DNA of 64,000 nt from Ochrovirga pacifica. Lineage in GTDB: Bacteria; Bacteroidota; Bacteroidia; Flavobacteriales; Flavobacteriaceae. Of this stretch, positions 1,496 through 25,151 are shown piece after piece; the first letter of the stretch is position 1; each line of letters begins with the position of its first letter. The stretch spans positions 1 to 64,000 of the forward strand of contig NZ_AFPK01000044.1 of NCBI RefSeq assembly GCF_000220525.1, given 5' to 3'. Below the pieces are notes generated by a model, which made no database searches, was not told the DNA's origin, and saw nothing but the letters and a program-made list of their open reading frames with translations. Both the position numbers and the translations under genes were made by a program.

Positions 1496-2995
1496 TTAAT
1501 TTTGAAGTACAGAGTTAGGTGGCAATGGAACCTTATTTTCTTTTCGCCATTCTACCAATTCTTTCAATAGTTTTTGTATTCTTTTAGATTCTGTTTTGAC
1601 CAAATTAACAGACTCTTTAGGATCTTTTTCTAAATTATAAAGTTCCAATTCTCCAGTAGCCAAATACTGAATTAACTTATAATTGTCTTTCCTTATTACA
1701 GAACACGCTTTTTGTTTTTTATTGTTACTAGCTAAGTGCCAGAACAAAGGTCTTTTCTCTAAAGATTTTTCATCTTTTTTAAACAAAGGAACCAAAGAGT
1801 TTCCATCTAACGTTTGTTGATAGTTTTGAATGTTTGCTAACTCTAAAAAAGTAGGAAAAAAATCTAGCAAACTAACTGCAACATGGGTTCTTCTCTCTTT
1901 TATTTTACCTGGCCAATTAATAAGCAAAGGTACACGTATACCACCTTCATAAATTTGTCTCTTTCGTCCTCTTAACAAATTGTTTTCGCCAATGTTGTAA
2001 CCATTATCAGATGTAAGAATAATTAATGTATTTTCTCTTAAGCCTTCTTTGTCTAAATATGTTACAATTTTCTGAATATTTTCGTCTACAGACTCAATCA
2101 TTGTAGCATATCCAGCCATAACTTTTCGCTTGTTTTCTGGCCCTATTCCCTGTCCCGTAACTTTATCTCCTTTTTTCTTAATGTACTTGTTGTACAATTT
2201 ATCATTTCTACTTTTTACAGGTTTGTGTACTGCATAGTAATTTAGATTGATGAAAAAAGGTTCTTTTTTATGTTCTCCCATAAAACGAATCGCTTCATCT
2301 GTCAATCGATCTGTTAACCATTCATCCGATGGTTTATTAATTATAAAAGGATTACTAAACGGAGCTCTATATCCTCCCTTATAACTTTTGTAGCCTTCTA
2401 TTTCAAAAGCGGGATCTCCTTTATACGTTCCTCCTACGTTTTCAATAAATCCACGTCCTTGCGGATAGTATTGTAACACTTCTTTGGTTTTATGTGCTGC
2501 CAGCCAAGTATAATCTCCTGGTTCTGGTTGTGTTAATTTTTGCTGAAAAGGATATGGTTGATTCAGTTCCTTTTCTGGGTAAGGTCCTACAATATGATAT
2601 TTCCCTAAGTGAATGGCTTTGTATCCACTTTTTGCCAAAGGCTGTGCATAAATTTCATGATCTTTAGTTACTGTCCATCTAGAAAATATATTTTCTTCTG
2701 CAGTTCCATGCTCTAAAACAGGTACATTGTACACTCCTGTTCTAAAAGATTGTTGCCCAGTAAAAATTGCACTTCTTGATGGAGAACAAGTAGGGTACAT
2801 ATAAGCATTGTCTACCAACAAACTATTTTTTGCTAATTTATCCAGATTAGGAGTTTCATAATATTTTGATCCATTGAAACCTACATCAGCATATCCTAAA
2901 TCATCTACCAAAATAAAAACAATATTGGGTTGCTTTTGTCCTAGCACGGTATAACCAATCAAGCAACATAAAATGAGAACGAAACTATTTTTCAT
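1496..2995 (-). CDS. S1-family sulfatase (arylsulfatase A-like)
   Basis: A secreted sulfatase of 499 residues. I chose the ATG at 2995 because it opens directly into a signal peptide (residues 1-19, ending TVLGQ); the frame upstream offers only a TTG and would overlap the esterase gene. Residues 24-32 carry the metal ligands (FILVDD, D31 D32), and CSPSR at 70-74 is the formylglycine signature. A later TSDNGYNIGE stretch matches the second metal-binding block of S1 sulfatases. The start is 7 bp after the esterase stop, so the two are co-transcribed. The expected role is hydrolysis of a sulfate ester on galactan oligosaccharides. The sulfate position cannot be read from sequence, and activation needs a maturase encoded elsewhere. 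Confidence 0.92.
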   Translation of the reverse strand: MKNSFVLILCCLIGYTVLGQKQPNIVFILVDDLGYADVGFNGSKYYETPNLDKLAKNSLLVDNAYMYPTCSPSRSAIFTGQQSFRTGVYNVPVLEHGTAEENIFSRWTVTKDHEIYAQPLAKSGYKAIHLGKYHIVGPYPEKELNQPYPFQQKLTQPEPGDYTWLAAHKTKEVLQYYPQGRGFIENVGGTYKGDPAFEIEGYKSYKGGYRAPFSNPFIINKPSDEWLTDRLTDEAIRFMGEHKKEPFFINLNYYAVHKPVKSRNDKLYNKYIKKKGDKVTGQGIGPENKRKVMAGYATMIESVDENIQKIVTYLDKEGLRENTLIILTSDNGYNIGENNLLRGRKRQIYEGGIRVPLLINWPGKIKERRTHVAVSLLDFFPTFLELANIQNYQQTLDGNSLVPLFKKDEKSLEKRPLFWHLASNNKKQKACSVIRKDNYKLIQYLATGELELYNLEKDPKESVNLVKTESKRIQKLLKELVEWRKENKVPLPPNSVLQN

Positions 2996-3002
2996 TTTAT
3001 TG

Positions 3003-3890: not shown

Positions 3891-4019
3891 TGTTAATTTT
3901 TTATTGTGTTTTACAGAGCACAAGTACGTTTATTTCTTTGGTTATGTTGTTCTTTTGCATTTACATTTTGTTTCTGATAGTAAATTAATCCTCTTTTTAA
4001 AATTCTCTAACAATTAAAC

Positions 4020-4053
4020 AAAAAAACCAACAGAAGGCTAGTTTGTTGGTTTT
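4020..4053 (-). terminator. Rho-independent terminator after the GH42-like gene
   Basis: On the minus strand a perfect 9-bp stem (AAAACCAAC/GTTGGTTTT) with a 13-nt loop is followed by a run of T. It lies 22 bp past the stop of the GH42-like gene and ends the unit that starts at 9389. Confidence 0.8.
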
Positions 4054-4074
4054 CTGTATCTCTATGTAGGTCGA

Positions 4075-6360
4075 TTATTTTTTAGTATCAACCTCAACAA
4101 AAAATACTTCGTTAGGTGCTAAAGTAGGTTTGTTGGTTACAGCAATTCCTTTAATCAGATCTTTGCAAACTGGTGTTAAGTTCCCATCCATAGAAATGTG
4201 AATTTGTGTTGGCTCTTTTCCAACATTTACAGCCGATAATACAACTTTACCATCTTGCTTTTTAATAGACTTCCATACACAAGTTTTTACTTTTAAAGGA
4301 TTTGTTTCTGTTACTTGTATACTTGGCAATAAATCTTTTTCTGCTAGCAAATCCATTGCTTTTTGTTCCATTTTTAGGGTATTTGCTACTTTTATCAACT
4401 TTCCTTTTTCTTGTTTTAGTTCTGTAGAAATAGCCTCTCCATATTCATTGTACTTTAAACTTTCTGAATCTAAAACAATCGTTCCTCCTTGATTTAAATA
4501 AGCTTGTAATGCGTTAAATTCTTCTTGAGTTACAAAGGGTGTTTTGTGAACCAAGACTACATCCCACAAAGTATTTTCTTGTTTGTTAATAATGTCTTTG
4601 GTTACAAAGCCTAAAGAAGTCCCATTAAAATGTAAACCTTCATACAACTCAAACACATCGTCCATATGTCTGGTTTTGTTAATGGCAGATGTTTTAGAAT
4701 AAAAAATTCGCAAAGGCTTTCTTAAACGTTGCAAACTCATAATTTCACGTCCAAAACTGTTTAAGTCAATCAACGTCATAGCAACTTCATTGGTTACTCT
4801 GGGTTGCATGTTGTTAGATCCCGCGTAACCTTTATCATTTTTAGCTTTCTTAGAAATAGCTCCATTAGCTCCTCTTGGCCAATACCAAATTTGACTAGCT
4901 GTCATTCCATAAGTATGTGCCAACCAAAAAGTAGCTCTTGCATATGCTGGATTCATATATAAATCACGAGATCTATTAGTAGATAAATAATGAAGTTCTG
5001 AATTAAAATTGATTTTGTTTGGACTTACAGATTTCATAAAATCAAATCCCATACACAATTCTCTCCAATCAAAAGCGTAGTGCTCTTCCCACTCATAAGG
5101 CTTTTTTTGCCAAATTCTTTTGTGTTCTGCACCAGAATCGTTTCCAATAATACCACTCATTTCGGTCAACGCCTCTAAGTCTATTCCATGTATTCTTGCA
5201 TTTTCAGTCCACAAATTAGGCATGATCTTTAAATGTACTTTTCCCTCTGGATCGTACTTTTGAATTTCATTTTTCATAAAACGATACCAATCTGTTACTC
5301 TATCCATATTAAAGGCAGCCCAATCGTACCATTTTGGTGTTCCTTTTAGGCTGATATCAATAGGAATTTGCAATTCCACAGTCTGAAAATTTTTAAAGTT
5401 GGTTTTCCATACCTTGTTTAAAGATGTAATATTTTTATGTTTTTCTTGTAACCAGTCTCTAAATTTATCCATCGTAAAATGCGAAACTCCTCCAGAAGCC
5501 CAAGGTTTTTTATTCTTAGTTTTATCTGTTTGTGTATAAAAATGAGGTTCGTTACACAACATGTATCCTAGTTCAGAAAACTTTTTACCTGCAGTACTGG
5601 GAACCACAGCTTTGATTAAGGCTTTCTGAATAACTCTAGCTCCTGGATTGTCTATATCGTAACCCGTATACGTATCTTCTCTCATACTAAAATTAGGTCC
5701 AAACTTTTCTTTTGCCCAATTGGGTACGGACTTGTGGTTGAAAAAAATAAATCCTAATGAGCCCTCTTTTTTAGCTTTTAATTCTTGTTCCTTTTTAGGC
5801 TGAAGATCTCCTTTTTCATTAATTACATAAGGTGGAGTGATAAAAAATCCATCTTGATTTCCGTGATATGCTGTCAATTTGGATGTTTTGGGTTTCCAAG
5901 TATAATCTGCCAAGAATACAGGTTGGTCTTTATAAGTAATTTGATCTCCATCTACATAAACTTCTTTCCAATCTACTTGTGGTGATGGTGTTCTAAATTG
6001 TTTTCCACTTAACACCAAAGACAACTCTTCTTTTGCTTTTTCTAGCATTAACAAAACCTCTTTTCTTTCAAAATCTGGCAATTCTTTGGCATATGTTGCT
6101 GCTTTGGGTTTGTAAGAAGCTACCAACTTGAATGCCTTGGTATTTGATTCTATATTTTTTTGATCCCAATCGGCAAACTCTAAAAATATTTCTGCAGTTC
6201 TAATTGTTGTTTTTTCCTTCAGAACGTCAATTCCTCTTTTCTCTGCTTTTTCAATTAGTTTTTCTAAATCTTTGATTTCGTGTGCAGCTTGTTTTTGTAC
6301 ATTCTGAGCAAAAAAACAACTAGTAAACAAACAAGCTATGGCTAGGATTCTTTTTTTCAT
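4075..6360 (-). CDS. GH42-like (clan GH-A) beta-galactosidase-type glycoside hydrolase
   Basis: A 761-residue secreted protein with a signal peptide (1-19). A helical N-terminal stretch (about 25-120) precedes a TIM barrel. CNEP at 269-272 supplies the likely acid/base E271, and NSEL at 453-456 the likely nucleophile E455. A Rossmann-like region near 570-690 resembles the trimerisation domain of GH42 enzymes, and a beta-rich tail ends the protein. The likely reaction is cleavage of beta-1,4-galactosyl linkages in desulfated or partly sulfated galactan oligosaccharides. Divergent GH42-like families act on agar and carrageenan fragments, so the exact CAZy family is left open. It is third in an operon with the flavoprotein and GH110 genes, starting 8 bp after GH110 ends. 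Confidence 0.75.
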   Translation of the reverse strand: MKKRILAIACLFTSCFFAQNVQKQAAHEIKDLEKLIEKAEKRGIDVLKEKTTIRTAEIFLEFADWDQKNIESNTKAFKLVASYKPKAATYAKELPDFERKEVLLMLEKAKEELSLVLSGKQFRTPSPQVDWKEVYVDGDQITYKDQPVFLADYTWKPKTSKLTAYHGNQDGFFITPPYVINEKGDLQPKKEQELKAKKEGSLGFIFFNHKSVPNWAKEKFGPNFSMREDTYTGYDIDNPGARVIQKALIKAVVPSTAGKKFSELGYMLCNEPHFYTQTDKTKNKKPWASGGVSHFTMDKFRDWLQEKHKNITSLNKVWKTNFKNFQTVELQIPIDISLKGTPKWYDWAAFNMDRVTDWYRFMKNEIQKYDPEGKVHLKIMPNLWTENARIHGIDLEALTEMSGIIGNDSGAEHKRIWQKKPYEWEEHYAFDWRELCMGFDFMKSVSPNKINFNSELHYLSTNRSRDLYMNPAYARATFWLAHTYGMTASQIWYWPRGANGAISKKAKNDKGYAGSNNMQPRVTNEVAMTLIDLNSFGREIMSLQRLRKPLRIFYSKTSAINKTRHMDDVFELYEGLHFNGTSLGFVTKDIINKQENTLWDVVLVHKTPFVTQEEFNALQAYLNQGGTIVLDSESLKYNEYGEAISTELKQEKGKLIKVANTLKMEQKAMDLLAEKDLLPSIQVTETNPLKVKTCVWKSIKKQDGKVVLSAVNVGKEPTQIHISMDGNLTPVCKDLIKGIAVTNKPTLAPNEVFFVEVDTKK

Positions 6361-6368
6361 TTGGGATT

Positions 6369-8195
6369 TTATTTTTTTGAATACTTAAAACCTTTATTCC
6401 TTTTAACCGTAAGAGTTGCTTCTGTGTTTTTATCCACATCAAAATATTTGGTTACCGTTCCCGTATATGTGTTTCTTGTAATGTTGATGTTTTTACAATT
6501 CTTAAGGTAAAACAAGGCATTATCAGGATACTGAGGTTTTTCTGTGGATGTTTGCTGTATGTTGTTTCCTTTAAAAACAAGTCCATCTAACCTGTCCGCC
6601 CAAACAATACAGTTGTCAAAGGTTTCAATTGTGTTGTTTTCAAACAAAATATTTCTATCGTAAACAGCTGTCTGATCAAAGGCTGATCCTAGCCTTGGCG
6701 ATACTTTTAGTACTGCATGCCCTGGAGCTCCTCCGTAGGCTACATGTTTAAAACGATTGTTTCTAATGGTTACATCTTCTACACTACCTGACTCAAACCA
6801 AAAATAACTTTCTCCTCTTAGCATGATGGAAGACATCATAGACGAAAAATCATTGTTTTCTAACAAGATTTTTTTGGGGGTTTTAATAATGATATTTCTA
6901 GCTCTGTGATCCCTAATTACACAATTACGCAGCGTAAATTCAGGATTCCAGGTTTTGTTTTCTAAAATATCTCCATCTTTTAAAGTGGTTGGAATTTCAT
7001 TTCCAAAGGTGATGTCCGTAAATCTATCATTAATGTATCGAATGGATTTTACTGTATTTATCGTACCTCTAGACGGATTTGGACTTTTAATAAACCAAAC
7101 CTCATCTCCTTTATCTGCAAATTTAAATCCTGTTTGCTCAAAATGCATTAAGCGAATTCTAACCGTCTGTTTGTCCAAAATTTTGTGTACCTCTACATAA
7201 GTTCCATGTACATTGGTACCATCGTCTAACATCCCTTCAAAACGACAATTATCAACCAAAATTTGTCCTTTGCAATTGGCAAAGTGTGTAGCATCTGCAA
7301 TAGTTGAAATCGCTCGATCCGACCCTTCTTTGATGTAAATTCCCGAATTCAAAATTTGAATTCCATCACATCTTTCGAACAAAAAACCCATTCCCAATGC
7401 GTGATGAATAACAACTTTGTCAAAAATAATATTGTTAGATTCTGTTACTTGAAAAGCTGGAGCATAACGATTTTGTTCGTGTGGTCCTTTGGAGTGAAAT
7501 ACCGATCCTACTCTTGGAAAATGTTTGATGTTTTCGTCGTAAATTCTTAGAATTCCATTCGGTTTTCTTTCTACTTTATTGGGTCTTAAAGACATGTCAA
7601 AAGCACCATAAGCAACTTGTTTTGTAGCTTTATCAAAAGCCAAAGTGCTTCCTAAAGAAGCAAAGTAAAAATGTTCTATATCTGGAAAAATAATACGTCC
7701 TCTTTGCAATTTCCAAGAATATCCTTTGGTATAAGGTTTCATTTCAAACCAATGTTCTTTTTTATTTACTGCAGTTACATCTCCTTGAAAACTGAATGGA
7801 ATATCCCAGTCTATAGTAATTCCTTTTACAGAGATTTGCTTGCAATTTAGAAATTGAAAAGGGGCTACTTGACCTCTAAAAATAAATTCTGCATTATTTC
7901 CTTCTAGGGTTACAGAGTTAAAGTCTTGAAACAAGAAAACAATCTTTTTTAAGCCATTTCCATGATTGGTAATGTAACAAAATTTTTCTTGTGCATAAGT
8001 GGGTAAAAAGTGATATACTCCTTTAGAAAACACTAATTTTAGATCTTTATCTTTTGTGTTTGCTATAGCCTCTCTAACCACAGTTGTAACATCATCACTA
8101 GGATGGATTTCTATAATTTCTTTTGCTTGGATTTGGTGTATTGTGAATAATAAACACAGTGATACCCATATTTTTTGAATGCTGTTATTTTTCAT
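6369..8195 (-). CDS. GH110 alpha-1,3-galactosidase homologue (right-handed beta-helix)
   Basis: A 608-residue secreted protein with signal peptide 1-24 and repeated short beta-helix coils through most of its length. The block ADATHF (300-305), then FEGMLDDGTNVHGTY (319-333), matches the conserved core of GH110 alpha-1,3-galactosidases such as the Bacteroides GlaB enzymes, as I recall those sequences. D301, D324 and D325 are the candidate catalytic acids; their spacing agrees with those I recall for a marine GH110. The family inverts and removes terminal alpha-1,3-linked galactose. In a carrageenan pathway it would break the alpha-1,3 bond that the beta-galactosidases cannot. The gene starts 12 bp after the flavoprotein gene and is followed at 8 bp by the GH42-like gene. 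Confidence 0.87.
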   Translation of the reverse strand: MKNNSIQKIWVSLCLLFTIHQIQAKEIIEIHPSDDVTTVVREAIANTKDKDLKLVFSKGVYHFLPTYAQEKFCYITNHGNGLKKIVFLFQDFNSVTLEGNNAEFIFRGQVAPFQFLNCKQISVKGITIDWDIPFSFQGDVTAVNKKEHWFEMKPYTKGYSWKLQRGRIIFPDIEHFYFASLGSTLAFDKATKQVAYGAFDMSLRPNKVERKPNGILRIYDENIKHFPRVGSVFHSKGPHEQNRYAPAFQVTESNNIIFDKVVIHHALGMGFLFERCDGIQILNSGIYIKEGSDRAISTIADATHFANCKGQILVDNCRFEGMLDDGTNVHGTYVEVHKILDKQTVRIRLMHFEQTGFKFADKGDEVWFIKSPNPSRGTINTVKSIRYINDRFTDITFGNEIPTTLKDGDILENKTWNPEFTLRNCVIRDHRARNIIIKTPKKILLENNDFSSMMSSIMLRGESYFWFESGSVEDVTIRNNRFKHVAYGGAPGHAVLKVSPRLGSAFDQTAVYDRNILFENNTIETFDNCIVWADRLDGLVFKGNNIQQTSTEKPQYPDNALFYLKNCKNINITRNTYTGTVTKYFDVDKNTEATLTVKRNKGFKYSKK

Positions 8196-8207
8196 TTATT
8201 CTATAAA

Positions 8208-9389
8208 TTATAATCTATCTTTGTATTGTTTTTTAAACTTTTTTAATTTCTTTTTTTGTTTTGCATGCAGGTTTTCTTCTTCATCTAGCAAAAACCAGTA
8301 CGCTCTTCTAGCAATTAAAAAATTATCTGCTTCTAATAAGTTTACCAATTGTTCTATAAGCAAATCCGAGCTAAATTGGTGCTGCTTTAAATTGCTTAAA
8401 AACATTTCTACTTCTTGATAACTAAACGTAGCTATTTGCTTACTTAGCTGATTGTAATATGCTGTATTTTCTCCTTTATTGGTTTTAGCTACTGAGTTAA
8501 GACAAGCTACTCGTTTTTTATAGTCTCCTTTAGCAAACAAATAAGTCACCGAAGCATAATAATGTTTAGCAGGTATGGTTTCTATATAATCCATTGCTCT
8601 TTTAAAAACAGCATACTCACTAAAAACTGCTTGCTGTACTACCTCTGTTACTGTAGCAGTATCTTTAAGACCTAAAAACAGAAAACTTTCGATGGCAAAT
8701 TTTTTATAATCTGAATCTTTATTTTTTAAAAACTCAGCAATCAAATCATCTTCAGAAAACTGTTTTCTTGTAATGTTTTTTATCTGGGATTCTATTTCTC
8801 CGTTTGCCCAATGCCATAATGTATAACAAGTCCAAACAGCTCCTTCAACGGTTTCGCTAGGACTTACGGTAGATGTTGCTCCAGATACAGCATCTACATC
8901 TACCGCACCGTGTTCTATAAAATCGGTAGTTACAAGATTGTCTTTAAATACATGGGCTAGCTCAGAATTTTTGTTCTGTAGTACCCATTCTAACTTTTTA
9001 TAGTCCTCAGAGGTAAACGGAGCTCCTTCTTTTTTTTCCAATCCCTCTCCATCTTGCAACTCATAATGTGTATATCGTCCTATTTCATCCCAAAACATGC
9101 GCACCGTAACTACCTTGCAAACATTTTCTCCACAATTAACGGAATCTACATCTAAATAAAATTCTTTGTTTCCATTAGCCTTTTGTCTCTCTACCAAATA
9201 ACATACTATCGGATTTTTTTTATCAATAGCAGGATGCACAACTGCAACCTTATGTACTTTTTCTGAAGGATTGGAAACTGTGTTAGATGATTGCAAAAAA
9301 CACATCAACACCAATACAAAAAAGAGATAAATTCTGTGTGTGTGGAGTCTTAAAAAAAAGGGTGTTTTTATGTTTTGTAAGCGATTCAT
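8208..9389 (-). CDS. Exported FMN-binding-domain protein fused to a helical (HEAT-like) domain
   Basis: I recognise the FMN-binding fold but not the whole protein. The ATG at 9389 gives 393 residues with an N-terminal hydrophobic segment (about 19-34). The alternative TTG at 9491 lies inside a terminator hairpin and is rejected. Residues 166-174 read DAVSGATST, the motif to which ApbE-type transferases attach FMN through a threonine (here T174) in RnfG/NqrC-like domains. An upstream region with C86 and C91 and a helical C-terminal half (about 200-393) of short repeated helices complete it. Its likely role is extracytosolic electron transfer. It heads the operon with GH110 and the GH42-like gene and follows the FAD oxidoreductase unit. 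Which reaction it serves is unknown. Confidence 0.7.
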   Translation of the reverse strand: MNRLQNIKTPFFLRLHTHRIYLFFVLVLMCFLQSSNTVSNPSEKVHKVAVVHPAIDKKNPIVCYLVERQKANGNKEFYLDVDSVNCGENVCKVVTVRMFWDEIGRYTHYELQDGEGLEKKEGAPFTSEDYKKLEWVLQNKNSELAHVFKDNLVTTDFIEHGAVDVDAVSGATSTVSPSETVEGAVWTCYTLWHWANGEIESQIKNITRKQFSEDDLIAEFLKNKDSDYKKFAIESFLFLGLKDTATVTEVVQQAVFSEYAVFKRAMDYIETIPAKHYYASVTYLFAKGDYKKRVACLNSVAKTNKGENTAYYNQLSKQIATFSYQEVEMFLSNLKQHQFSSDLLIEQLVNLLEADNFLIARRAYWFLLDEEENLHAKQKKKLKKFKKQYKDRL

Positions 9390-9518: not shown

Positions 9519-11486
9519 TTAAGCTTCGTAAGCTCTTATTTCAAACAACTTAGCTGTTTTATGTCCATACGTTTGTTTTAACTGAATTCTAATTGCCGAT
9601 GTTTTTATTTTGGTAAAATCAAATTTAATCAAGCGAGCAATATTTCTGTCTTTTGTTCCAACTTTTATCCATGTTCCATTCACTCTCACCTCTAAATCCA
9701 ATTCTCTTAGCAACTCTGGAGGCACGGTGTCAATAAACGTTTTTCTTTGTCTGTCTGACAATGGTTGTTTTCGCATAGTGATATTTTTATGCAAATTGGT
9801 ATCACATTTTATCTCTACCTTAGAAAGCTGTACGGGCTGTTCCCACTCTAACTGAAAGGTAGCTGGCAACCCTTCGGACTGCCAATGGTTTATTTCTCCG
9901 TCAATGTCTCTAGAAATTCCGTTGATGACATTTTTTGCAGCTCCAGATTTGGTTGATGTAGCGAAAATAGCACTCGCTTTTTTAGCTAAATCTTTAGGAT
10001 CATTAGCTACTACTTTTGGAATGTACACATCGTCTCGCATTAGCATTTCTTGTAACTGTTTGATGTGCTTCTGCTTTACTTCTCGTGGTGTAATTTTTTT
10101 GTTTACACAAATAGTTGCTGCTGTACCTGTGGCTTGCCCCATCAATGCACAAGTTCCCTGAATACGTGTTGATGACAACGCAATATGAGTTAAACTTGCA
10201 TTACGCCCAGCAAACATTAAATTGTCTATATTTTTAGAATACAAAGAACTAAAAGGAACTTGGTAAACGGTTTTAAAACGTTCGTGAAAAAAACTTGGAC
10301 GCTCTTTAATATCTAAAATTCCTCCTGGATTGTGCTCGTCCAAAGACCAACCTCCATAACCAATAGCATCTTCAAAATGTCTATGCCCTGTTAAATCTCT
10401 TTCTGACAATATATGATCTCCTATAAAACGACGAGACTCTCTACGTCCTGGCAAAGAACCTACCCATTCTAAAGCATAATTTGCAGAATCTGGATATTTT
10501 CCCGAGTTTTTTATGTAATCCCAAACCCCATGCAAATATCCCATCAAATCATGACGGTTGTCTTCTTGCACATCTATAATATCATGATCACTTCCAAGCT
10601 CTACCCACCAATATCCATCTAAATATTGACTAATTTTTCTTTCGTGGTTGGCATTGTCTCCATCGTATTTTTTTGCAAATGTCGGTGCTGTGTAAGGCAT
10701 CGGTCTGCCGTGATCTTTTCCTTGTAATAAAATAGAAGCTCCCATTTGCCATCCATCTGGCTGGTCTGGTGCATAGGTTTCATTAAACTCCGCTTTTCCT
10801 TCCCTTCCGGTTCTGTATAACGCTCCTGCTTTTGCAGCCATCAATCCATCTCCTGAGCAATCAATAAACATATCTCCTTTTACGGTAAATTCTGTTTCGG
10901 TAGTTAATTGCCAGCATTTTGTAGAAACAATTTTAGCTCCCTCCATTGTAGCATCAATGGCCTGCGTATTTAACATAACGGTTAAATTAGGTTCTCTAAC
11001 TACATAATCGTACACAATATGATCCCAAACAGGATACGATTGTTGCGGATTGTACAAACGGTTTTCTAACATTATTTCTTCCACAATTCCTGTTTCTCTT
11101 TCTGCTTTTCCTGTAGACAAACGGTTTACTCCGTTAAGAGTAACACGAATTTCGCTAGATGCATTTCCTCCTAAAACAGGACGGTCATTAATCAATACTG
11201 TTTTGGCTCCATTTCTTGCCGATGCTACTGCTGAACAAATACCTGCAACTCCTGCTCCAACCACAACTACATCGTAGGTTACTGTCTTTTTTCTTTCAGG
11301 ATTGGGGACTTTTTTTCCTGTTCCTAACTGATGCCATTGCCCATCACCTTCTACAGCCGTGGCACTGGTATTTCCTTGGTTAATTTCCTCTGCAACTCCG
11401 TCTAAAGATTTGCAAGAAGACAAAGGTATTACACTGGCTGCAACAGCTGCACCTGCCGCATTTTTTAAAAAATTTCTACGTTTCAT
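9519..11486 (-). CDS. FAD-dependent oxidoreductase lipoprotein with Tat-type signal and C-terminal discoidin-like domain
   Basis: A 655-residue flavoprotein of the FAD_oxidored (PF12831) type. The N-terminus has a twin-arginine motif (RRNFLK, residues 3-8), a hydrophobic segment and a lipobox LSSC with C25, so a pre-folded, cofactor-loaded lipoprotein is likely exported by Tat. GAGVAG at 77-82 is the dinucleotide-binding loop, followed by LGGNASS. Residues from about 510 form a beta-rich domain like coagulation factor 5/8 C modules, possibly sugar-binding. It starts 26 bp after the sulfatase gene, forming a two-gene unit. Its substrate is unknown; oxidation of a sugar or sugar-derived group is the simplest guess. 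Next downstream lies the FMN-motif protein, a possible electron partner. Confidence 0.8.
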   Translation of the reverse strand: MKRRNFLKNAAGAAVAASVIPLSSCKSLDGVAEEINQGNTSATAVEGDGQWHQLGTGKKVPNPERKKTVTYDVVVVGAGVAGICSAVASARNGAKTVLINDRPVLGGNASSEIRVTLNGVNRLSTGKAERETGIVEEIMLENRLYNPQQSYPVWDHIVYDYVVREPNLTVMLNTQAIDATMEGAKIVSTKCWQLTTETEFTVKGDMFIDCSGDGLMAAKAGALYRTGREGKAEFNETYAPDQPDGWQMGASILLQGKDHGRPMPYTAPTFAKKYDGDNANHERKISQYLDGYWWVELGSDHDIIDVQEDNRHDLMGYLHGVWDYIKNSGKYPDSANYALEWVGSLPGRRESRRFIGDHILSERDLTGHRHFEDAIGYGGWSLDEHNPGGILDIKERPSFFHERFKTVYQVPFSSLYSKNIDNLMFAGRNASLTHIALSSTRIQGTCALMGQATGTAATICVNKKITPREVKQKHIKQLQEMLMRDDVYIPKVVANDPKDLAKKASAIFATSTKSGAAKNVINGISRDIDGEINHWQSEGLPATFQLEWEQPVQLSKVEIKCDTNLHKNITMRKQPLSDRQRKTFIDTVPPELLRELDLEVRVNGTWIKVGTKDRNIARLIKFDFTKIKTSAIRIQLKQTYGHKTAKLFEIRAYEA

Positions 11487-11512: not shown

Positions 11513-12979
11513 TTATAAATCTACCCCTGTTCCTTGTAGAGAATTATCGTGATCCCACATAATTAACCAGGGATCTTTGGTTTGTAACTGAAATTTTCTA
11601 AGCTGTGCTTTTAGTTCGGCTAATTTTTCTTGATATGCCTCATCTAACGCAAGATTGTTGGTTTCTCCTGGATCTTTTTCCAAATCAAACAACTCGAATT
11701 CCGCATGTTTTAAATAATCTTCTACAGTTTTGTTTCCATACATCTCTTCATGATTTCTATACACACTTTGCCAAGTAGAAGAAGCCCATAAATCTGATGC
11801 AAATGGATAGTCTAATTGCCAAGCAATATTCCATATCAACTTATATTTTCCTTGAATCACGGCTTTCATAGGATAGTACATGGTAATTTCATGAAATGTG
11901 TGCGATGCATATACAGTATTCCAACCTTCTGGATTTTCTTTTTCAAGAATTCCATGAAAAGACTTTCCGTGAAATTCCTTTTTATCATAAGATACACCTG
12001 CCATATCTAAAATAGTTGGAGTAATATCTACCCAAGAAATTTTGGCATTATTTATCCCTCCTTTGTTTTCTTGTTGGCTAGGGTCTTTAATAATACATGG
12101 AAGCTGAATTCCTGGTTCATAAACTGTTGTTTTAGCTCCAGGAAAAGCCATTCCGTTATCCGAAATATAAAAAACAATAGTATTGTTTAACTTATCTGCT
12201 TCTTTTAAGTGCTGCATCAAACGTCCAAAACCTTGATCTATTCTGGATATACTTTGATAGTATTGAGCTATTTCTTCCCTAGACTCTTTGGTGTCTGGCA
12301 AAAAATCGGGAACAACAACGTCATTAGGATCATAGACCACTTGGTTTTCCCCTGGATAAGGTTCTTTTTTATTTCCAAACGAGTTAGGCAAATTCCATGG
12401 TTCAGACTTAAAAGGATGTCCGCGGTGAGGATCGTCTGTACAGAAATATAAAAAGAAGGGCTTTTTTGATTGAATGACATCCACACAAGCATCGGCCATC
12501 TCTAAGGTACTTCTAGGGTTGGCCTCCAAAACCGTATTAAAATGATACACTTTTTCTGGTGCCACGTGGTATTTTCCAATCCTAGCGGTTTCATAACCTG
12601 CCTGTTCTAATAATATGGGTAATGATTTTACATGATCGTAAGTGCTGAAATGATGATAATCGTGCACATGTCCGTAAGATCCGGTTGCGTGTCCAAATTT
12701 TCCTGTTAGAATTACAGATCTACTTGCAGCACAACTTGCGCTGGTACAATACGCATTGTTAAATCGTACTCCTTCTGCAGCCAATTGATCCAAATTTGGA
12801 GTCTGAATTACTTTATTTCCATAAGCTCCTATAGCATCTTTTCCATGGTCATCTGCCACAAACAACACAATATTGGGTTGGTTACTTAACGTTTTTGATG
12901 GCGTTTCTTTTGATGGGCTACAAGCCATTAAGAAAACACCTAAAATAAAAATCTTTGATTGTTGTAAAATTGAAATCAT
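11513..12979 (-). CDS. S1-family sulfatase lipoprotein, heparan N-sulfatase-like, with CAASR signature
   Basis: A 488-residue sulfatase. The signal ends in a lipobox (FLMAC, C20), so it is probably anchored in a membrane. VADDHGKDAIGAYG (41-54) carries the first metal ligands and resembles the sulfamidase-like S1 subfamily. The activation signature is CAASR at 83-87 rather than the usual CxPSR; anaerobic sulfatase-maturing enzymes are known to accept alanine in the third position. Later blocks YISDNG and PGIQLPCI fit the fold. It is the first gene of a two-gene unit with the FAD oxidoreductase. It may remove sulfate from galactan oligosaccharides, and despite the family name no amino sugar need be involved. 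Confidence 0.9.
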   Translation of the reverse strand: MISILQQSKIFILGVFLMACSPSKETPSKTLSNQPNIVLFVADDHGKDAIGAYGNKVIQTPNLDQLAAEGVRFNNAYCTSASCAASRSVILTGKFGHATGSYGHVHDYHHFSTYDHVKSLPILLEQAGYETARIGKYHVAPEKVYHFNTVLEANPRSTLEMADACVDVIQSKKPFFLYFCTDDPHRGHPFKSEPWNLPNSFGNKKEPYPGENQVVYDPNDVVVPDFLPDTKESREEIAQYYQSISRIDQGFGRLMQHLKEADKLNNTIVFYISDNGMAFPGAKTTVYEPGIQLPCIIKDPSQQENKGGINNAKISWVDITPTILDMAGVSYDKKEFHGKSFHGILEKENPEGWNTVYASHTFHEITMYYPMKAVIQGKYKLIWNIAWQLDYPFASDLWASSTWQSVYRNHEEMYGNKTVEDYLKHAEFELFDLEKDPGETNNLALDEAYQEKLAELKAQLRKFQLQTKDPWLIMWDHDNSLQGTGVDL

Positions 12980-14674: not shown

Positions 14675-17578
14675 TTAATTTAAAGGAGAACTTAACGTAA
14701 TGTCTATAAATCTAAAACCACCTAAAGGTACATCTACAGTAACCGTTCCTTGGACTTGGTAAGAAGTTCCATCTAAAATATCTCTCATTTCAATAGGATT
14801 TATTGTCTGAAACTGTACCACCGCTTTTTGAGCCTTAGGATTTAGATATCCTCCATCAATAAGTGTTAATCTTAGATTTGTAGACGATGTTTGTGCTACC
14901 ACCCAAGCCACATCACCAGAAACTGTTAAAGGCATTTTTTTTGCTCTTTGTTGAATGTCTTTTTGAACTGTATGATGATAATTTTTTGCATCGTATTGTT
15001 GCGTGCCATCTTCAGAATAATAATACCTACCATCGGTATAATATTCTTTTAAAATGTTTTTGTATAAAGGGTGCAACTTATCTTTTAGCTTTCCTCTAGG
15101 TGCTGTAAGATCTGCATTTGCTCCTTGCTGTGGAGGAGTAATTAAAACTAATCCGTTTGGATAATTTGGCAAATAATTTTGTCTTCGGTCTTTTACATTT
15201 GCTGCATAGCTAGAAAAATCCCAGGGTGTGTTTTTTGCTCCCATCCAATTGGCATTTTGTCGGCTAAACACAAAAGCATTGTTATTGATAAATTCTTCGT
15301 CGTAATGCGTAGCCCATTTTAAACTACTTCCTTCTGTAAGAAAATGAGTATCTGGAGGTAGCATACTGATATGTACTGGAGAAATGCTTAACAACTCATT
15401 GGGTTTGGGCACAAACAATGCTCCTTTAGCTACCAATTCCCATACAATACTCATGTAATCTGGATCAATTGCAAAATTATTGATATAGGTTGCTCCGTTA
15501 GCCATATGATAAATTAAATGACGTAAAAAGTGATTGGGAAGTTGTTGATGACAAAATTGCCTAGACCTGTCATAACTAGGATTATCTGGTACAGTTCTAG
15601 TACCCCAATCAGTTACTGCACCACTTGCCCAAATACCTACTCTGCTGGCGATACTTATATCCATGGCTTTGTCTGTGGTTTCTTCCATAGAAGGCACAAA
15701 AACATTCGCATATTTTCCAGACAACAATCCTTTCCACATAGGCATGTATACATTGGCCTGCCAAAAATTATGCTTAGTTCTTACATAAATATTTGCATTT
15801 TTTGTTTGGCAATAGGCCGCTAAAGGATAAAACATATCCTCCATAACCCAAGCAAAATCTTCTGAATGATCTTCTAGCTCAGGAAAAATCATCACTGTTT
15901 TTTTCCCTTTTGCATAATCCAGAGTTTGTTTTCTTGTTTCTAGCTGAAAAAAGTACGGATCGTTACCATGCCCACCCCAGTAAGCAATTCCCTCGTCACC
16001 CGCTGGAGATTCATCGTACCAAGCATTGATCATATTTATAGACTCTTGCTGACTGAGTACGTATTTTTTACGTCCGTCTCTTTTTTGCTGATACTTTGCA
16101 TTGCCTAAAGACGATCGATCCCAATTTTCTGTCTTAGAAAAATGACTACCACCCAAAAATTTTGGACTTTGGTAATGGTTTCTAATATTTGTTGCGGTCA
16201 ACTTTGCCAAGCCACTACTTAAATCCTCTGTCATAAAGTAAATAGCTCTTGCTGCTCTTTGCTCCGATGGCTGTTGATATCTAGCTAAGGCTTCTCTTGA
16301 CTTTGTTGTATTTGCTAAAATTTCTTGAATTTTTCCTTTAGGAATTAAAGCTTGATATTCTTGTTTCCAATTTGGATGCCCTGTATTTACTATATGAATT
16401 TGACTTCCCCCACTTTGACAACTTGCCAAAATTAGTTGATTGGAATTGGAACGTTTCCACATATCATAATACGCATATTTGGTTTCTAACTTTTCTTCTG
16501 ATGTAAAGTCTTTTGACACCAAAACCATATGATTTCCTACTAAGAATAAATACTTTTCTTGATCTACATCCACAATCAACTCTGGCTGTACTACAGAATA
16601 TCCAAATCCTAATTTATTAATTTTGTATTGGTCTGTGGTATCGTCTTTTAAATGGACTCTAGCTACATTGGCTTCATTTTGATGGTTAGAAGCTCCTAGC
16701 AGAATTTCATAAATTCCATCTTTATCATAATCCGAAAAACGCAATTCTCCAATAGGACTTGTTGCTTGGGTTTCTATTCTTTTAATAGGATTATCGGCCA
16801 ACACATCAAACACATAAATTGCTCCTTTGTCTTGCGAAGGATTGTTACTAGCATGCATAATTAAATAATCATTCTCTGCATCTTTGGGCATGGGTCTTAA
16901 AAAATTGGCATAATGCACAAAGTCTTTGGCTGTGGTAGTACCCCATGTTTTTTCTTTGGAATAATCTTTAGACTTTAGTTGTTTTACCAAACTTCCTGAA
17001 GCAGACAAATAATAACAATTTAAATCTAAACTTCCCCCAATAACATAATACTGTCCTTCTTTTTTAACAGCTGTTACCGCATACATAGGAACTTCATTTT
17101 TTTGGTAATTCCACAATTCTTTTCCCTTTGCATTGATACAATAAATACGACCATCGGCATTGGCAACCAAAACTTCATCATCTCCATCACCTGTTAGATC
17201 TACACACCAAAGATCGTGTATCATAAACCCCGATACATTATTTTTCCAAAGCACCAGTCCATTATAATTTACTGACAGTAGAGTTCCCTCGTAAGTACTG
17301 GCCACAATAACCTCTTTACCATTTTGTTTTGCCGTTCTAACTTTATGAATTGTATGTCCGGTTTCTATACTATAAATCGCTCCTACTTCTTTTACCTTAT
17401 TTGGCAACGAATACTTAAGAGCGGTTTCTCCTGTATATTGTTTATCTTTAACAAAAGACCATTGTTCCATTTCTGATGTTTTCCATTGACTTTGTTGGGT
17501 TTCAAAATTGTATTTTTTTTGAGCACACAATGATTGAAACACACAAAAAATCAACAAAAATCTTATTGTTTTATTCAT
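14675..17578 (-). CDS. Putative GH150 lambda-carrageenase, beta-propeller plus catalytic domain (paralogue A)
   Basis: A 967-residue secreted protein with signal peptide 1-19. A short jelly-roll-like piece (about 22-60) is followed by an N-terminal beta-propeller (about 70-400) with calcium-loop motifs such as DLTGDGDDE (127-135) and DYDKDGIYE (283-291). The C-terminal half (about 470-967) carries WGGHGNDP (534-541), PELEDH (566-571) and PSMEET (629-634), all kept in the paralogue at 19226-22048. Size and layout match CglA, the about 942-residue lambda-carrageenase that founded GH150. The predicted action is endo-cleavage of beta-1,4 bonds in lambda-carrageenan. It has no T9SS tail, but the next gene encodes a T9SS protein. 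The family call rests on architecture and context, not on alignment. Confidence 0.65.
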   Translation of the reverse strand: MNKTIRFLLIFCVFQSLCAQKKYNFETQQSQWKTSEMEQWSFVKDKQYTGETALKYSLPNKVKEVGAIYSIETGHTIHKVRTAKQNGKEVIVASTYEGTLLSVNYNGLVLWKNNVSGFMIHDLWCVDLTGDGDDEVLVANADGRIYCINAKGKELWNYQKNEVPMYAVTAVKKEGQYYVIGGSLDLNCYYLSASGSLVKQLKSKDYSKEKTWGTTTAKDFVHYANFLRPMPKDAENDYLIMHASNNPSQDKGAIYVFDVLADNPIKRIETQATSPIGELRFSDYDKDGIYEILLGASNHQNEANVARVHLKDDTTDQYKINKLGFGYSVVQPELIVDVDQEKYLFLVGNHMVLVSKDFTSEEKLETKYAYYDMWKRSNSNQLILASCQSGGSQIHIVNTGHPNWKQEYQALIPKGKIQEILANTTKSREALARYQQPSEQRAARAIYFMTEDLSSGLAKLTATNIRNHYQSPKFLGGSHFSKTENWDRSSLGNAKYQQKRDGRKKYVLSQQESINMINAWYDESPAGDEGIAYWGGHGNDPYFFQLETRKQTLDYAKGKKTVMIFPELEDHSEDFAWVMEDMFYPLAAYCQTKNANIYVRTKHNFWQANVYMPMWKGLLSGKYANVFVPSMEETTDKAMDISIASRVGIWASGAVTDWGTRTVPDNPSYDRSRQFCHQQLPNHFLRHLIYHMANGATYINNFAIDPDYMSIVWELVAKGALFVPKPNELLSISPVHISMLPPDTHFLTEGSSLKWATHYDEEFINNNAFVFSRQNANWMGAKNTPWDFSSYAANVKDRRQNYLPNYPNGLVLITPPQQGANADLTAPRGKLKDKLHPLYKNILKEYYTDGRYYYSEDGTQQYDAKNYHHTVQKDIQQRAKKMPLTVSGDVAWVVAQTSSTNLRLTLIDGGYLNPKAQKAVVQFQTINPIEMRDILDGTSYQVQGTVTVDVPLGGFRFIDITLSSPLN

Positions 17579-19225: not shown

Positions 19226-22048
19226 TTACAAGGCTTGTTTGATAGTGACATCTATAAATCGGAAACCTCCTAACGGAATTTCTATGGATGTTCTTTGCTG
19301 GCTGCTTTTAAATTTTTCCTGACTCAATATATCTTGAATTTGAACAGGAACCACCTTATGAAACTGAATTGTGGCAGTGCTTTTTTTAGGATTGATGTAG
19401 CCATTGTCTAACAATGTTACCCTTAATTTATCTGGAGCTATTTGAGCTACTACCCAAGCAACCTCTCCAGACACAGTTAAAGGAAGTTCTTTAGCATATT
19501 TTTGAATTTCTTTTTCTACTACCTTATAATACTCTTTTGCATTGTATTTCGTTTTTCCATCGGCAGAAAAATAAGAACGTCCATCGGTAATAAATTCTTT
19601 GGTAATGTTTTTATACATGGAATGCAAATTGTCTTTCAACAAACCTCTTGGTACATTTTGTTGTGCAAAAACACCATTTTGTGGTGGGGTAATTAATACC
19701 AAACCGTTGGGATATGGAGCTAAAAAATTCAATCTTCTTTCTTTTACCCCGCTTGCATAACGAGAAAAATCCCAAGGAGTAATAACTGCTCCAGGCCAAG
19801 AACCATTCATTCTACTAAACACCATTGGGTTTTCGGCTTCTTCTTTTTCATTAAAAAAAACAGTCCATTTTACATTAGCTCCATCTTCTAAAAAACGATG
19901 ATCAGGTTCTTTCATACTTAAATGTACAGGCGAAATACTTAACACTTCATTTCTTTTAGGCACATACAAAGCTCCTTTGGCAATTAGCTCCCAATACAAA
20001 CTTATATACTCTTGATTTACTGGAAAATTATTGATAAACTGAGCTCCATTTGCTGTATGAAAAATTAACATTCTAAGCATGTGATTGGGCAATCTTTGGT
20101 TTCCTAACTGTCTAGATCTATCAAAAGAAACATTGTCTGGTACTGCTCTTGTTCCCCAACTTTTTACTGCACCACTAGTCCACATTCCCATTCTTCCTGC
20201 CAAACTCAACTCCATGGTTTTGTCTGTAGTTTCTTCCATAGAAGGGATAAAAACATCCGCAAATTCTCCAGACATTAATCTAGACCAAGGACTTAGATAG
20301 TTAGATCCCAACCAAAAAATATTTTTAGACCTAAGGAAGATATTGGTGTTTTTTCCTTGTGCATAATTTGCCAAAGGATATATTAAATCATTTAACAAAA
20401 AGGTTAAATTGCTTTCGTTATGATCTTCTACCTCTGGATAAATTAACACTGTTTTTTTTCCTCTGGCTTTGTCTATTACTTTTTTGGTAGTGGCAATGCT
20501 AAACATATAAGGGTCGTTACCATGCCCACCCCAATAAGAAATTCCAGGAGCATTTTTATAGTTTTCAGCAATCTCTGAAACAGCTTGTATACTTGTAAGA
20601 GTATATTTTTTTCTTCGATCTCTTGTGTTTTGGTATTTTGAATTAGACAGTACAGAACGATCAAACTTTTCTACATTTTTCATAAAAACAGAATTCAAAA
20701 ACACAGGATTTTTATAGGTTGTTTCAATTTCTGTTTTTAGTTTTTGTAAATTTTCAGGAATTTTTTCTGTCATTAAATACACCAATTGCGATGAATTTTC
20801 TACTTCTGGTTTTTGATAAGCTTTTAACTGTTTTTTTATTTGCTGTGTATTCTCTAAGATTGTAGCAATTTTTCCTTTAGGCTCTAATTGCTGATAGTCT
20901 TTTTTCCACACTTCGCTATTCAAATCAAACACATGAATGCAACTCCCACCACTTTGAGCACTTGCCATAATCATTTGGTTATTTTTTTCATCTTTCCACA
21001 CATCATAATAGGCATATTTGCTTTGTATAATTTCTTCTTTTAACGTGTTGTCTGAAGGTTGATAGAGTCTAATCTGGTTTCCTATTCTAGTGATGTAGTA
21101 ATTTTTATTTCTTTGATTTAACACAATGGTTTGGGCAATATCGTAACCAAACCTTACTTTTTTTATTTCATGAAAACTAAAACGATTTGCATCTATATCG
21201 TAAGTGGTAACTAATAAATCGTTGGAATGAGCAGAAGCTCCCATTATAATTTCATCATTCCCATCTTGATCCACATCTGCTATTTTAAAATCACCAATAG
21301 GACGAATTCTAATTTTTTTCTTTAGTGATTTATTTCCTTTTACAGGAACTTTTTTAAACGGCAATTCTTCTAGAGGATTAAAAAAATATAAAGTTCCTGG
21401 CACGTTCATGTGATTGTTAGTCCCCAACACCACCAAGCCATTAGTACCATCACTTTTTTGATAAGGTCTTATAAAGTTGGCCGTAGCAATTCCTGCTTTA
21501 GGAAGTTCTTTTTTGTTTTTACTCCATGGTTTTTCTATAGAAAAGCGAGAGGTTTTTATCTCTTTAATCAAAGTTCCTTGTGCAGACAAATAATACAAAG
21601 AAGTATCAAATCCTCCTGCAACCACATAAGTTTTATCTTCCTTTTTTACCATTGTAACAGCGTACATAGGTGCTTGATTTTTCTGAAAAGACCACATCAC
21701 TTCTCCAAAACTATTCACACAATAAATTGTACCGTTGGCATTGGCTACCACCACTTCATCTATGGCATCACCATCTAAATCACCAGACCATAAATCATGA
21801 TTCATAAAACCTGAAAGTGGCTGTTCCCATAGCAACTTCCCCTCATCACTGTAAGCCAATAAAGTTCCTTCATAAGAACTTGCAATAAGTACCGTTTGCT
21901 TTTTGTAATTAGCCGTTTGCACTTTTTGAATGGTATAGTTGGTATCTATACTCATCGTTTTTTTACGCCTGTTGTTTTTTTCTTTTTCTGATGCTTGAAC
22001 AATGCTTAAAAAAGCAAGAAAACTCAATACAAGTAGTTTCAATTTCAT
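19226..22048 (-). CDS. Putative GH150 lambda-carrageenase, beta-propeller plus catalytic domain (paralogue B)
   Basis: A 940-residue paralogue of the 14675-17578 product. Signal peptide 1-19 is followed by a short basic stretch (NNRRKK) and then directly by the propeller, so it lacks the N-terminal jelly-roll piece of paralogue A. Calcium loops DLDGDAIDE and DVDQDGNDE are visible. The C-terminal half keeps WGGHGNDPY, PEVEDH, PSMEETTDK and WGTRAVPDN at matching places. The length is close to the characterised lambda-carrageenase. It has no sorting tail or lipobox, so location after the inner membrane is uncertain. It forms a single-gene unit bounded by terminators. Divergence between the two copies suggests different sulfation preferences, which is inference. 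Confidence 0.65.
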   Translation of the reverse strand: MKLKLLVLSFLAFLSIVQASEKEKNNRRKKTMSIDTNYTIQKVQTANYKKQTVLIASSYEGTLLAYSDEGKLLWEQPLSGFMNHDLWSGDLDGDAIDEVVVANANGTIYCVNSFGEVMWSFQKNQAPMYAVTMVKKEDKTYVVAGGFDTSLYYLSAQGTLIKEIKTSRFSIEKPWSKNKKELPKAGIATANFIRPYQKSDGTNGLVVLGTNNHMNVPGTLYFFNPLEELPFKKVPVKGNKSLKKKIRIRPIGDFKIADVDQDGNDEIIMGASAHSNDLLVTTYDIDANRFSFHEIKKVRFGYDIAQTIVLNQRNKNYYITRIGNQIRLYQPSDNTLKEEIIQSKYAYYDVWKDEKNNQMIMASAQSGGSCIHVFDLNSEVWKKDYQQLEPKGKIATILENTQQIKKQLKAYQKPEVENSSQLVYLMTEKIPENLQKLKTEIETTYKNPVFLNSVFMKNVEKFDRSVLSNSKYQNTRDRRKKYTLTSIQAVSEIAENYKNAPGISYWGGHGNDPYMFSIATTKKVIDKARGKKTVLIYPEVEDHNESNLTFLLNDLIYPLANYAQGKNTNIFLRSKNIFWLGSNYLSPWSRLMSGEFADVFIPSMEETTDKTMELSLAGRMGMWTSGAVKSWGTRAVPDNVSFDRSRQLGNQRLPNHMLRMLIFHTANGAQFINNFPVNQEYISLYWELIAKGALYVPKRNEVLSISPVHLSMKEPDHRFLEDGANVKWTVFFNEKEEAENPMVFSRMNGSWPGAVITPWDFSRYASGVKERRLNFLAPYPNGLVLITPPQNGVFAQQNVPRGLLKDNLHSMYKNITKEFITDGRSYFSADGKTKYNAKEYYKVVEKEIQKYAKELPLTVSGEVAWVVAQIAPDKLRVTLLDNGYINPKKSTATIQFHKVVPVQIQDILSQEKFKSSQQRTSIEIPLGGFRFIDVTIKQAL

Positions 22049-23668: not shown

Positions 23669-23697
23669 AAAAAAAGCACACCCACTAGGTGTGCTTT
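23669..23697 (-). terminator. Terminator overlapping the end of the CstA-like gene
   Basis: A 10-bp stem (AAAGCACACC/GGTGTGCTTT) with a 5-nt loop followed by a T run on the minus strand. The stop codon of the transporter gene lies inside it. Confidence 0.85.
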
Positions 23698-25151
23698 GAC
23701 ATTTTACGAAAAATTTTAAACTTTTTTTGTCTTTTAGTTCTTTTAACAAACACTATAAATAAAATAGTAATTGCTATTGTTAGCAATGCTCCTAGCGTAT
23801 AAGACCATTGCTTTTCTAACTGAAAACCTTCTGGAGCTATTAAAATATAAGTACTACAAACCATGGTCATAAAAATGGCAGGTAACAACGTAACCCAATA
23901 ATTCTTTTGTTTGCCTATTAAATAGGCAGTTATGGTCCACAAAACAACAACCGCTAATGTTTGGTTGGCCCATGCAAAATACCTCCAAATAATAGCAAAG
24001 TTTACTTTGGTTAACACAAAAGCCACGACAAACAAAGGAACACTAATATACAATCTCTTATAAATACTTTTTTGATCAAACGAAAACACATCTGCTAGAA
24101 TTAACCTTGCAGATCTAAAAGCTGTGTCTCCTGAGGTAATGGGAGCTGCAACAATTCCTAAAACTGCTAAAATTCCACCTACACTACCTAACATATTTAA
24201 CGATATTTCATTAGCTGCCCACGCTGCACTATTTCCATTTTCAGCCATTGCTTGGTTTAGTCCATGTACATCACCAAAAAACACCATCGCTGCTGCTGCC
24301 CAAACCAAAGCAACAATTCCCTCAGTAATCATAGCTCCAAAAAACACTTTTTTTCCTTCCACTTCATTTTTAACACAACGAGCCATTAAAGGAGATTGTG
24401 TTGCATGAAAACCCGAAATTGCTCCGCAAGCAATGGTAATAAACAACATAGGAAAAATAGGTGTATTTTCTGAATTGTGTTTCATGTTTACTAAGTTAGA
24501 AGGGATTATTTCTGGAATCTGATAGTCTCCCGTTAACAAAACCACCAGCAAACCTAAAGCCATAAATAACATTGCTGCTCCAAACACAGGATACAGTTTA
24601 CTAATAACCTTATCTATAGGTAACAAAGTGGATAATATATAATAAATTAAAATAAAAGCAACCCAAACAGAAATTCCCAAAGCATTCGCTGTCATTCCAT
24701 CTATTATTTTGGCAGGACCTACTAAAAAAACAGCTCCCACAAAAATTAACAATACCACTGTAAAAAAACGCATAAATTGTTTGATGGCATTCCCTAAATA
24801 AATCCCAACTACCTCACTAATACTTAACCCTCCATGACGTAACGACATCATTCCAGAAAAATAATCGTGAACTGCACCTCCAAAAACACATCCAAAAACA
24901 ATCCATAAAAAAGCCGATGGTCCATACATTGCTCCTGCAATAGCTCCAAAAATAGGACCTAGACCAGCTATGTTAAGAAACTGAATTAAAAAAACTTTCC
25001 ACAAAGGCAAAGGCATATAATCAATATCATCTCTCTGGCTGATGGCTGGGGTTTCTTTATTAGGATCTATAACAAAAATGTTTTCTATGATTTTTCCATA
25101 CACAAAATAGCCTACCACTAAGATGACTATTGAAATTACAAATGATTTCAT
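23685..25151 (-). CDS. CstA-family (carbon starvation) transporter
   Basis: A 488-residue polytopic membrane protein with about 12-14 hydrophobic segments. The opening (FVIDPNKETPA, then GLGPIFGAIAGAMYG and HDYFSGMMSLRHGG) is characteristic of the CstA/BtsT family, which in enterobacteria imports peptides or pyruvate. It is shorter than the roughly 700-residue E. coli CstA, as is usual for the short form. It starts 1 bp after the stop of the GH2 gene, so it is co-translated with a beta-galactosidase. That position suggests a role in handling carbon from galactan breakdown, such as uptake of pyruvate or another small product; the substrate is unknown. Confidence 0.88.
   Translation of the reverse strand: MKSFVISIVILVVGYFVYGKIIENIFVIDPNKETPAISQRDDIDYMPLPLWKVFLIQFLNIAGLGPIFGAIAGAMYGPSAFLWIVFGCVFGGAVHDYFSGMMSLRHGGLSISEVVGIYLGNAIKQFMRFFTVVLLIFVGAVFLVGPAKIIDGMTANALGISVWVAFILIYYILSTLLPIDKVISKLYPVFGAAMLFMALGLLVVLLTGDYQIPEIIPSNLVNMKHNSENTPIFPMLFITIACGAISGFHATQSPLMARCVKNEVEGKKVFFGAMITEGIVALVWAAAAMVFFGDVHGLNQAMAENGNSAAWAANEISLNMLGSVGGILAVLGIVAAPITSGDTAFRSARLILADVFSFDQKSIYKRLYISVPLFVVAFVLTKVNFAIIWRYFAWANQTLAVVVLWTITAYLIGKQKNYWVTLLPAIFMTMVCSTYILIAPEGFQLEKQWSYTLGALLTIAITILFIVFVKRTKRQKKFKIFRKMSKHT

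Follow-up and report, generated by a model that had tools for sequence, protein, structure and literature searches.

The usual account of how seaweed sulfated galactans are broken down names hydrolases, sulfatases and lyases. What would a protein with a covalently bound flavin do among such enzymes? The question is raised by a gene of Ochrovirga pacifica (Flavobacteriaceae) in a stretch of 64,000 nucleotides (contig NZ_AFPK01000044.1, positions 1 to 64,000; the window), for which a sequence-only reading had proposed a covalently flavinylated partner in glycan breakdown. The features of the window used below, all on the minus strand, are as follows.

1496..2995, minus strand: sulfatase of the same cluster
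4075..6360, minus strand: GH42-like glycosidase (PF02449, E 7.7e-9)
6369..8195, minus strand: GH110-type protein (GLAA-B barrels, beta helix; Pfam scan), probable alpha-1,3-galactosidase
8208..9389, minus strand: flavin-carrier protein P0001, 393 amino acids (aa), with an N-terminal hydrophobic helix, a beta/alpha domain with the flavinylation motif and a helical-repeat domain (reading frame, model and alignment)
8211..8837, minus strand: C-terminal helical-repeat (HEAT-like) domain of the carrier, about residues 185-393, a possible docking platform (predicted model, sequence and fold matches)
8874..8894, minus strand: codons of D166-A-V-S-G-A-T172, the ApbE flavinylation motif, with T172 the predicted FMN acceptor
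9117..9134, minus strand: codons of C86 to C91, a conserved C-x4-C cysteine pair
9519..11486, minus strand: PF12831 FAD oxidoreductase, 655 aa, with a Tat-type start (MKRRNFLKN) and a C-terminal CBM32-like module at about residues 497-655 (Pfam, model and fold match)
11513..12979, minus strand: sulfatase (Pfam scan)
14675..17578, minus strand: lambda-carrageenase (CGLA domains; Pfam scan)
19226..22048, minus strand: second lambda-carrageenase (CGLA domains; Pfam scan)
23685..25151, minus strand: CstA-like membrane transporter

Judged from its gene content, the locus is a lambda-carrageenan cluster: one strand encodes two lambda-carrageenases, the GH110-type and GH42-like proteins, a GH2, sulfatases and an esterase-like protein, a set in which the two CGLA proteins, the GLAA-B protein and the sulfatases mark a lambda-carrageenan utilization locus. 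A Pfam scan of 19 window genes showed no SusC/SusD pair; the cluster reaches the contig start and is possibly cut off there. The GH110 and GH42-like genes follow the carrier gene on the same strand at gaps of 12 and 8 bp, in agreement with the operon first proposed. The carrier had also been taken for the first gene of that operon, which is ruled out by the PF12831 oxidoreductase, a sulfatase and both lambda-carrageenases upstream on the same strand. We also considered and dropped a promoter just ahead of the carrier gene, as a consensus scan gave no minus-strand promoter-like site in the 129 bp between oxidoreductase and carrier; such sites were at shuffle level in the region (34 found; shuffles, mean 32.5, standard deviation 5.9).

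The carrier gene (8208-9389) is genuine, and its minus-strand frame of 393 aa does contain DAVSGATST at residues 166-174. The ApbE motif, as defined in the accessible part of PMC12052999, is D-x-x-[ST]-G-A-[ST] with FMN attached at the last residue; the carrier has it exactly, and the predicted acceptor is therefore T172. T174, the acceptor named by the sequence-only reading, is ruled out both by this published motif and by the variability of position 174, where just 3 of 69 aligned carriers (the window's own included) have a T. In an alignment of 95 carriers, taken from the family-genome search and a scan of genome contigs and again including the window's own, five residues are invariant (T172, G104, K119, G183 and W192), and D166 (94), C91 (94), C86 (93) and G170 (91) are nearly so. 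The strict motif is present in 72/95, and 90/95 have D-x-x-[STA]-G-x-[ST], a relaxed form; five of the 23 departures from the strict form are at D166 or G170. Some members have DAVSGPT, DAMSGET or DAVTRPT, and every change at 169-171 retains T172. Conserved to this degree, the motif is not a matter of chance. A further cysteine, C188, is kept in 68/69 sequences of one alignment (A3) and is replaced by T or S in 9/36 of another (A1).

The structural model of the carrier (mean pLDDT, 90.2; pTM, 0.82) has an N-terminal helix at 11-32, five strands and one helix at 43-138, a poorly ordered loop at 158-172 that ends at the acceptor (modeled at pLDDT <50), and helices from 185 to 388. The latter are predicted with high confidence, so that the fusion to a helical domain described earlier is borne out. 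By sequence this part resembles HEAT-like repeats weakly (PF13646 in 4/36 members at E ≤ 0.1), and its best fold match has a Z of 12.5, which for helical repeats possibly reflects just a common arrangement.

Profile scores fall short of the FMN-binding domain (FMN_bind; PF04205) that the sequence-only reading saw in the carrier. The carrier scores 15.3 bits as a whole protein and 17.0 bits as the domain alone, below the curated cut-off of 22, and PF04205 matches occur in 21/60 members of the N-domain alignment at E ≤ 1 (best, 5.6e-4). When the N-domain was compared locally, profile to profile, with 18 FMN_bind domains, the probability was 75-76% and E about 2e-5, over just 15-17 columns around the motif (74.9% over 16 columns with 30 FMN_bind domains); in the controls, the helical part stayed below 5%, and 20 column-shuffled profiles scored at most 12.2 versus 36.3. 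Global profile alignment of the N-domain with FMN_bind gave 0.04% probability (helical control, 1.0%). Because of this value and of the score below the PF04205 cut-off, the flavin pocket stays putative; and since the local match is short while the global alignment failed, the N-domain would be a flavinylation domain in its own right or else an FMN_bind domain that has diverged very far. The order of strands and helix in the model of this domain (residues 36-184) is compatible with FMN_bind by eye only; searched by fold, the whole carrier drew helical-repeat proteins. NCBIfam models gave nothing for the window carrier and scattered weak matches for its relatives (best, rnfG in 1/69 at E 3.6e-4), and a search of solved structures gave just a weak match to the FMN_bind crystal domain 8p2b (E 0.083 and E 0.047). 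Designed repeat proteins also matched the N-domain profile (E 0.0014 and 0.0068), but no single stretch was significant, and we discounted these matches as noise from repeats.

Relatives of the carrier were found in 30/249 genomes of the same family, its own included, one of them (G212) as a broken remnant. A scan of genome contigs with the window carrier as a single protein gave no relative; with a profile of an 11-sequence alignment it gave 78 carrier loci. Their records include Flavobacteriaceae, Saprospiraceae, Flammeovirga, Planctomycetes, Kiritimatiellae, Pontiellaceae and Verrucomicrobia, some of these family names not being part of the record titles. In a sample of the phylum, the family was present in 8/395 genomes (E 1e-8), and the carrier is therefore a specialized trait.

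Among 104 distinct carriers (>250 aa only; identical last 200 residues counted once; PF12831 assigned by cluster membership), 87 directly follow a PF12831 gene on the same strand (median gap, 2 bp; many 4-bp overlaps). Six have it elsewhere in the locus (carrier first in five, the pair separated by apbE in one), and for 11 the stretch retrieved contains no PF12831 member of the cluster. These 11 are mainly Planctomycetes, Kiritimatiellae, Verrucomicrobia and Pontiellaceae records; one lies at a contig edge, and another (L086) has a diverged PF12831 about 3 kb upstream. The survey of homologues next to PF12831 oxidoreductases that had been suggested from the sequence thus gave a clear association: 33/34 carrier loci versus 2/40 control regions (Fisher, 1.7e-17), where the controls are regions of about 20 kb at hand-chosen positions in carrier-bearing family genomes, several loci and regions share one genome, and these same oxidoreductases belong to the cluster from which the PF12831 profile was made. 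For 64 pairs, the distances among carriers are correlated with those among their oxidoreductases (r, 0.716; maximum of 1,000 permutations, 0.244), which is owed in part to shared species history. The pairing occurs also in other seaweed-degrading bacteria.

Several single loci add to this picture. At one carrier homologue without PF12831 (L131:5818-8671), a nitroreductase gene identified by Pfam precedes the carrier and a look-alike, by eye, lies on its other side, a layout suggesting that the carrier domain may serve other flavoenzymes. In L123 and L125, assembly error or decay has broken the PF12831 gene beside the carrier into two frames, and in L123 the carrier as well. In a Pontiellaceae locus (L095), the carrier is followed by a gene with a Planctomycete-type cytochrome c domain and a membrane-protein match below cut-off. 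In Flavobacterium sp. 7A (L091), apbE lies between the oxidoreductase and carrier genes.

A rival reading takes the motif for a loop that is not flavinylated or a relic kept for structure, and the protein for a chaperone or scaffold, built of helical repeats, of the exported oxidoreductase. It would account for the helical repeat in the C-terminal half, for an FMN_bind similarity confined to the motif, and for the members with DAVSGPT, DAMSGET or DAVTRPT. It sits poorly with a T172 that is among the five invariant residues of 95 carriers and outlasts all changes at 169-171, and with an apbE inserted between the pair in one relative; we regard it as quite unlikely.

The oxidoreductase matches PF12831 over model positions 1-416 of 416 (298.2 bits, above the curated cut-off), and its model has a mean pLDDT of 82.5. 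In fold searches, the FAD part resembles many flavoenzymes with no clear nearest function, and the part from about residue 497 matches CBM32 and related sugar-binding modules (Z up to 18.6; 1.6 Å over 123 residues); by its model, the FAD enzyme has a sugar-binding part of its own. A twin-arginine pattern is present in 58/64 adjacent oxidoreductases, four of the six misses beginning MKRRKFF, and TatC is encoded in the O. pacifica genome. By a threshold of our own, 65/69 and 31/36 aligned carriers have a hydrophobic N-terminal segment. From these signals, carrier and oxidoreductase both appear to be exported.

The ApbE that the sequence-only reading called for is encoded once in the genome (E 2.2e-80), with a lipobox-like TTGC near its start (lipoprotein-like by eye). 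This is a weak test: ApbE is present in 246/249 family genomes (210/210 of the more complete ones), and its presence therefore discriminates little and was dropped as a strong argument for flavinylation. All 46 carrier genomes tested have ApbE (28 from the 29 carrier-positive family genomes other than O. pacifica, and 18 reached through 19 of the 78 loci). Elsewhere in the genome (L070, contig C16, 4679-16510), a membrane protein with an FMN_bind domain and, by eye, ferredoxin-like cysteines adjoins three proteins with heme-type CxxCH sites, two of them >1,000 aa, in what looks like a separate extracytosolic electron-transfer locus.

At the genome level, close forms of carrier (E ≤ 1e-58) and oxidoreductase (57% identity or more over nearly full length) were found in the same 10/249 family genomes, with at most four oxidoreductase candidates scored per genome and with the close-form limits and the oxidoreductase groups drawn after the tables had been seen. 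Close forms coincided also in 3/3 genomes of the phylum sample, two of which were already in the first sample. A second oxidoreductase group (42-45% identity, about 650 aa) is confined to five genomes, all carrier-positive, and a third (34-38%, about 600 aa) is found in 15 genomes with the carrier; the oxidoreductase of G218 (34%, 647 aa) is in a genome without it. A fourth group (about 760-830 aa, 38-43%) is unlinked to the carrier, which is missing from 5 of its 17 genomes and a remnant only in a sixth (G212). Two of the 30 carrier genomes (G003 and G020) gave no oxidoreductase at E 1e-40, and G020 has a diverged one beside its carrier.

In 4 of the 10 genomes, O. pacifica included, there are two or three close oxidoreductases but a single carrier, which suggests, from gene counts, that one carrier is shared by several oxidoreductases per genome. 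The second close oxidoreductase of O. pacifica (L229, contig C26) is 59-61% identical and has a Tat-type start; there is no carrier gene beside it on its 11.6-kb contig. Around it (898-9137) lies a second carrageenan-type cluster with, by eye, GH127-like, GH16-like and two sulfatase genes.

The glycan setting of the carriers is supported, if less sharply than the pairing with the oxidoreductase: sulfatases (17/34 carrier loci versus 10/40 control regions; p 0.02) and SusD (13/34 versus 4/40; p 0.004) are enriched, SusC (14/34 versus 11/40; p 0.16) and GH2 (6/34 versus 2/40; p 0.09) not significantly so. A CstA-like transporter is enriched as well (12/34 versus 1/40) and directly follows 22 of the 104 distinct carriers, and so may transport what the redox step yields. 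Sulfatases are present in 50 of the 78 loci from the contig scan. This last count and the gene pairing and genome co-occurrence that tie the carrier to a PF12831 enzyme with a sugar-binding module argue against a carrier that reduces a periplasmic disulfide or metal site via C86-x4-C91 in a merely incidental glycan setting; despite the strong conservation of both cysteines (C86, 93/95; C91, 94/95), we hold this to be very improbable.

The motif, its invariance, the gene pairing, the genome co-occurrence, the domain architecture and the export signals read from the sequence, all of them observed, point to a protein that is probably a dedicated, covalently flavinylated periplasmic electron carrier for the exported, glycan-bound FAD oxidoreductase encoded upstream. 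The original proposal of a flavinylated partner in glycan breakdown thus survives in part: the invariant acceptor, ApbE and the PF12831 association favor it, its operon position, T174 and the PF04205 score do not, and flavinylation and the glycan reaction are predicted. In the mechanism that we propose, in which we infer FMN attachment, complex formation, electron direction and sugar substrate, ApbE would flavinylate the periplasmic carrier on T172, and the Tat-exported oxidoreductase would dock on sulfated galactan or its oligosaccharides via its CBM32-like module and dehydrogenate a sugar hydroxyl. Electrons would then pass from the FADH2 of the oxidoreductase to the covalent FMN of the carrier and on to the respiratory chain, with the helical-repeat domain as the docking surface, and a single carrier may act for several oxidoreductases within a genome.

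The main rival to this dedicated oxidative carrier is the reverse electron direction, from the quinol pool through the covalent FMN to an FAD enzyme that reduces a glycan-derived compound, as in FMN_bind-fused fumarate and urocanate reductases. Flavinylated reductases of both kinds feed their FAD active site via FMN, according to the accessible part of PMC8238504. The solved sequences closest to the oxidoreductase are likewise flavocytochrome c fumarate reductases, in a match that covers only residues 70-142, the start of the FAD domain. The cytochrome c neighbor in L095 fits an oxidative sink instead. We know of no sugar reduction step in galactan catabolism, and we consider reverse flow unlikely. 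A bolder form of the oxidative reading is doubtful, if conceivable: an undescribed class of covalent-FMN proteins as the shared redox hub for several polysaccharide clusters per cell, where exported, glycan-bound FAD enzymes would oxidize sulfated sugars, leading to non-hydrolytic cleavage or desulfation, and a single carrier would collect the electrons for respiration.

If true, the dedicated carrier would add a respiratory redox step to seaweed sulfated galactan breakdown, bring ApbE flavinylation into carbohydrate use, and name a partner for the PF12831 enzymes of such clusters. The literature searched, most of it outside subscription journals and including the accessible parts of PMC10979944 and PMC12052999, yielded no description of a flavin-carrier/PF12831 pair. 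An FAD-dependent oxidoreductase adjoining a SusC/D pair is mentioned in the accessible part of PMC11345257; FMN is not mentioned in that of PMC11748540, and the main text of PMC8238504, as far as accessible, is without polysaccharide, carbohydrate, Bacteroid, sulfatase and PF12831.

Among known systems, the locus resembles PUL 8 of Pseudoalteromonas carrageenovora and the clusters of Flavobacteriaceae S85, which in the accessible part of PMC6262041 combine GH150 lambda-carrageenases with GH110 and GH2; sulfatases are common to PUL 8 and the window cluster. Unlike here, a flavin carrier goes unmentioned for those clusters in the same part of PMC6262041, whose main text is without FMN and has the word oxidoreductase once. 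As in the DUF2271 and DUF3570 substrates of ApbE (PMC8238504, accessible part), the motif would be in a domain other than FMN_bind, although neither family is among the Pfam matches of the window carrier or the tallies for its relatives. With the FMN_bind carriers of PF04205 (NqrC, RnfG, NosR and PplA), the window carrier shares a D-x-x-[ST]-G-A-T motif preceded by strands and a helix and followed by a helix, putative export as read from its sequence, and an ApbE in the genome; it differs from them in its score below the PF04205 cut-off, its motif-only similarity, its C-x4-C pair and helical-repeat domain, and its partner, a PF12831 FAD oxidoreductase in a glycan cluster. The FMN_bind-containing fumarate and urocanate reductases, as far as described in the accessible part of PMC8238504, likewise join a covalent FMN motif to an extracytosolic FAD enzyme; here, by contrast, the two parts are separate genes, the PF12831 enzyme has a CBM32-like module, the setting is polysaccharide breakdown, and the direction is probably oxidative.
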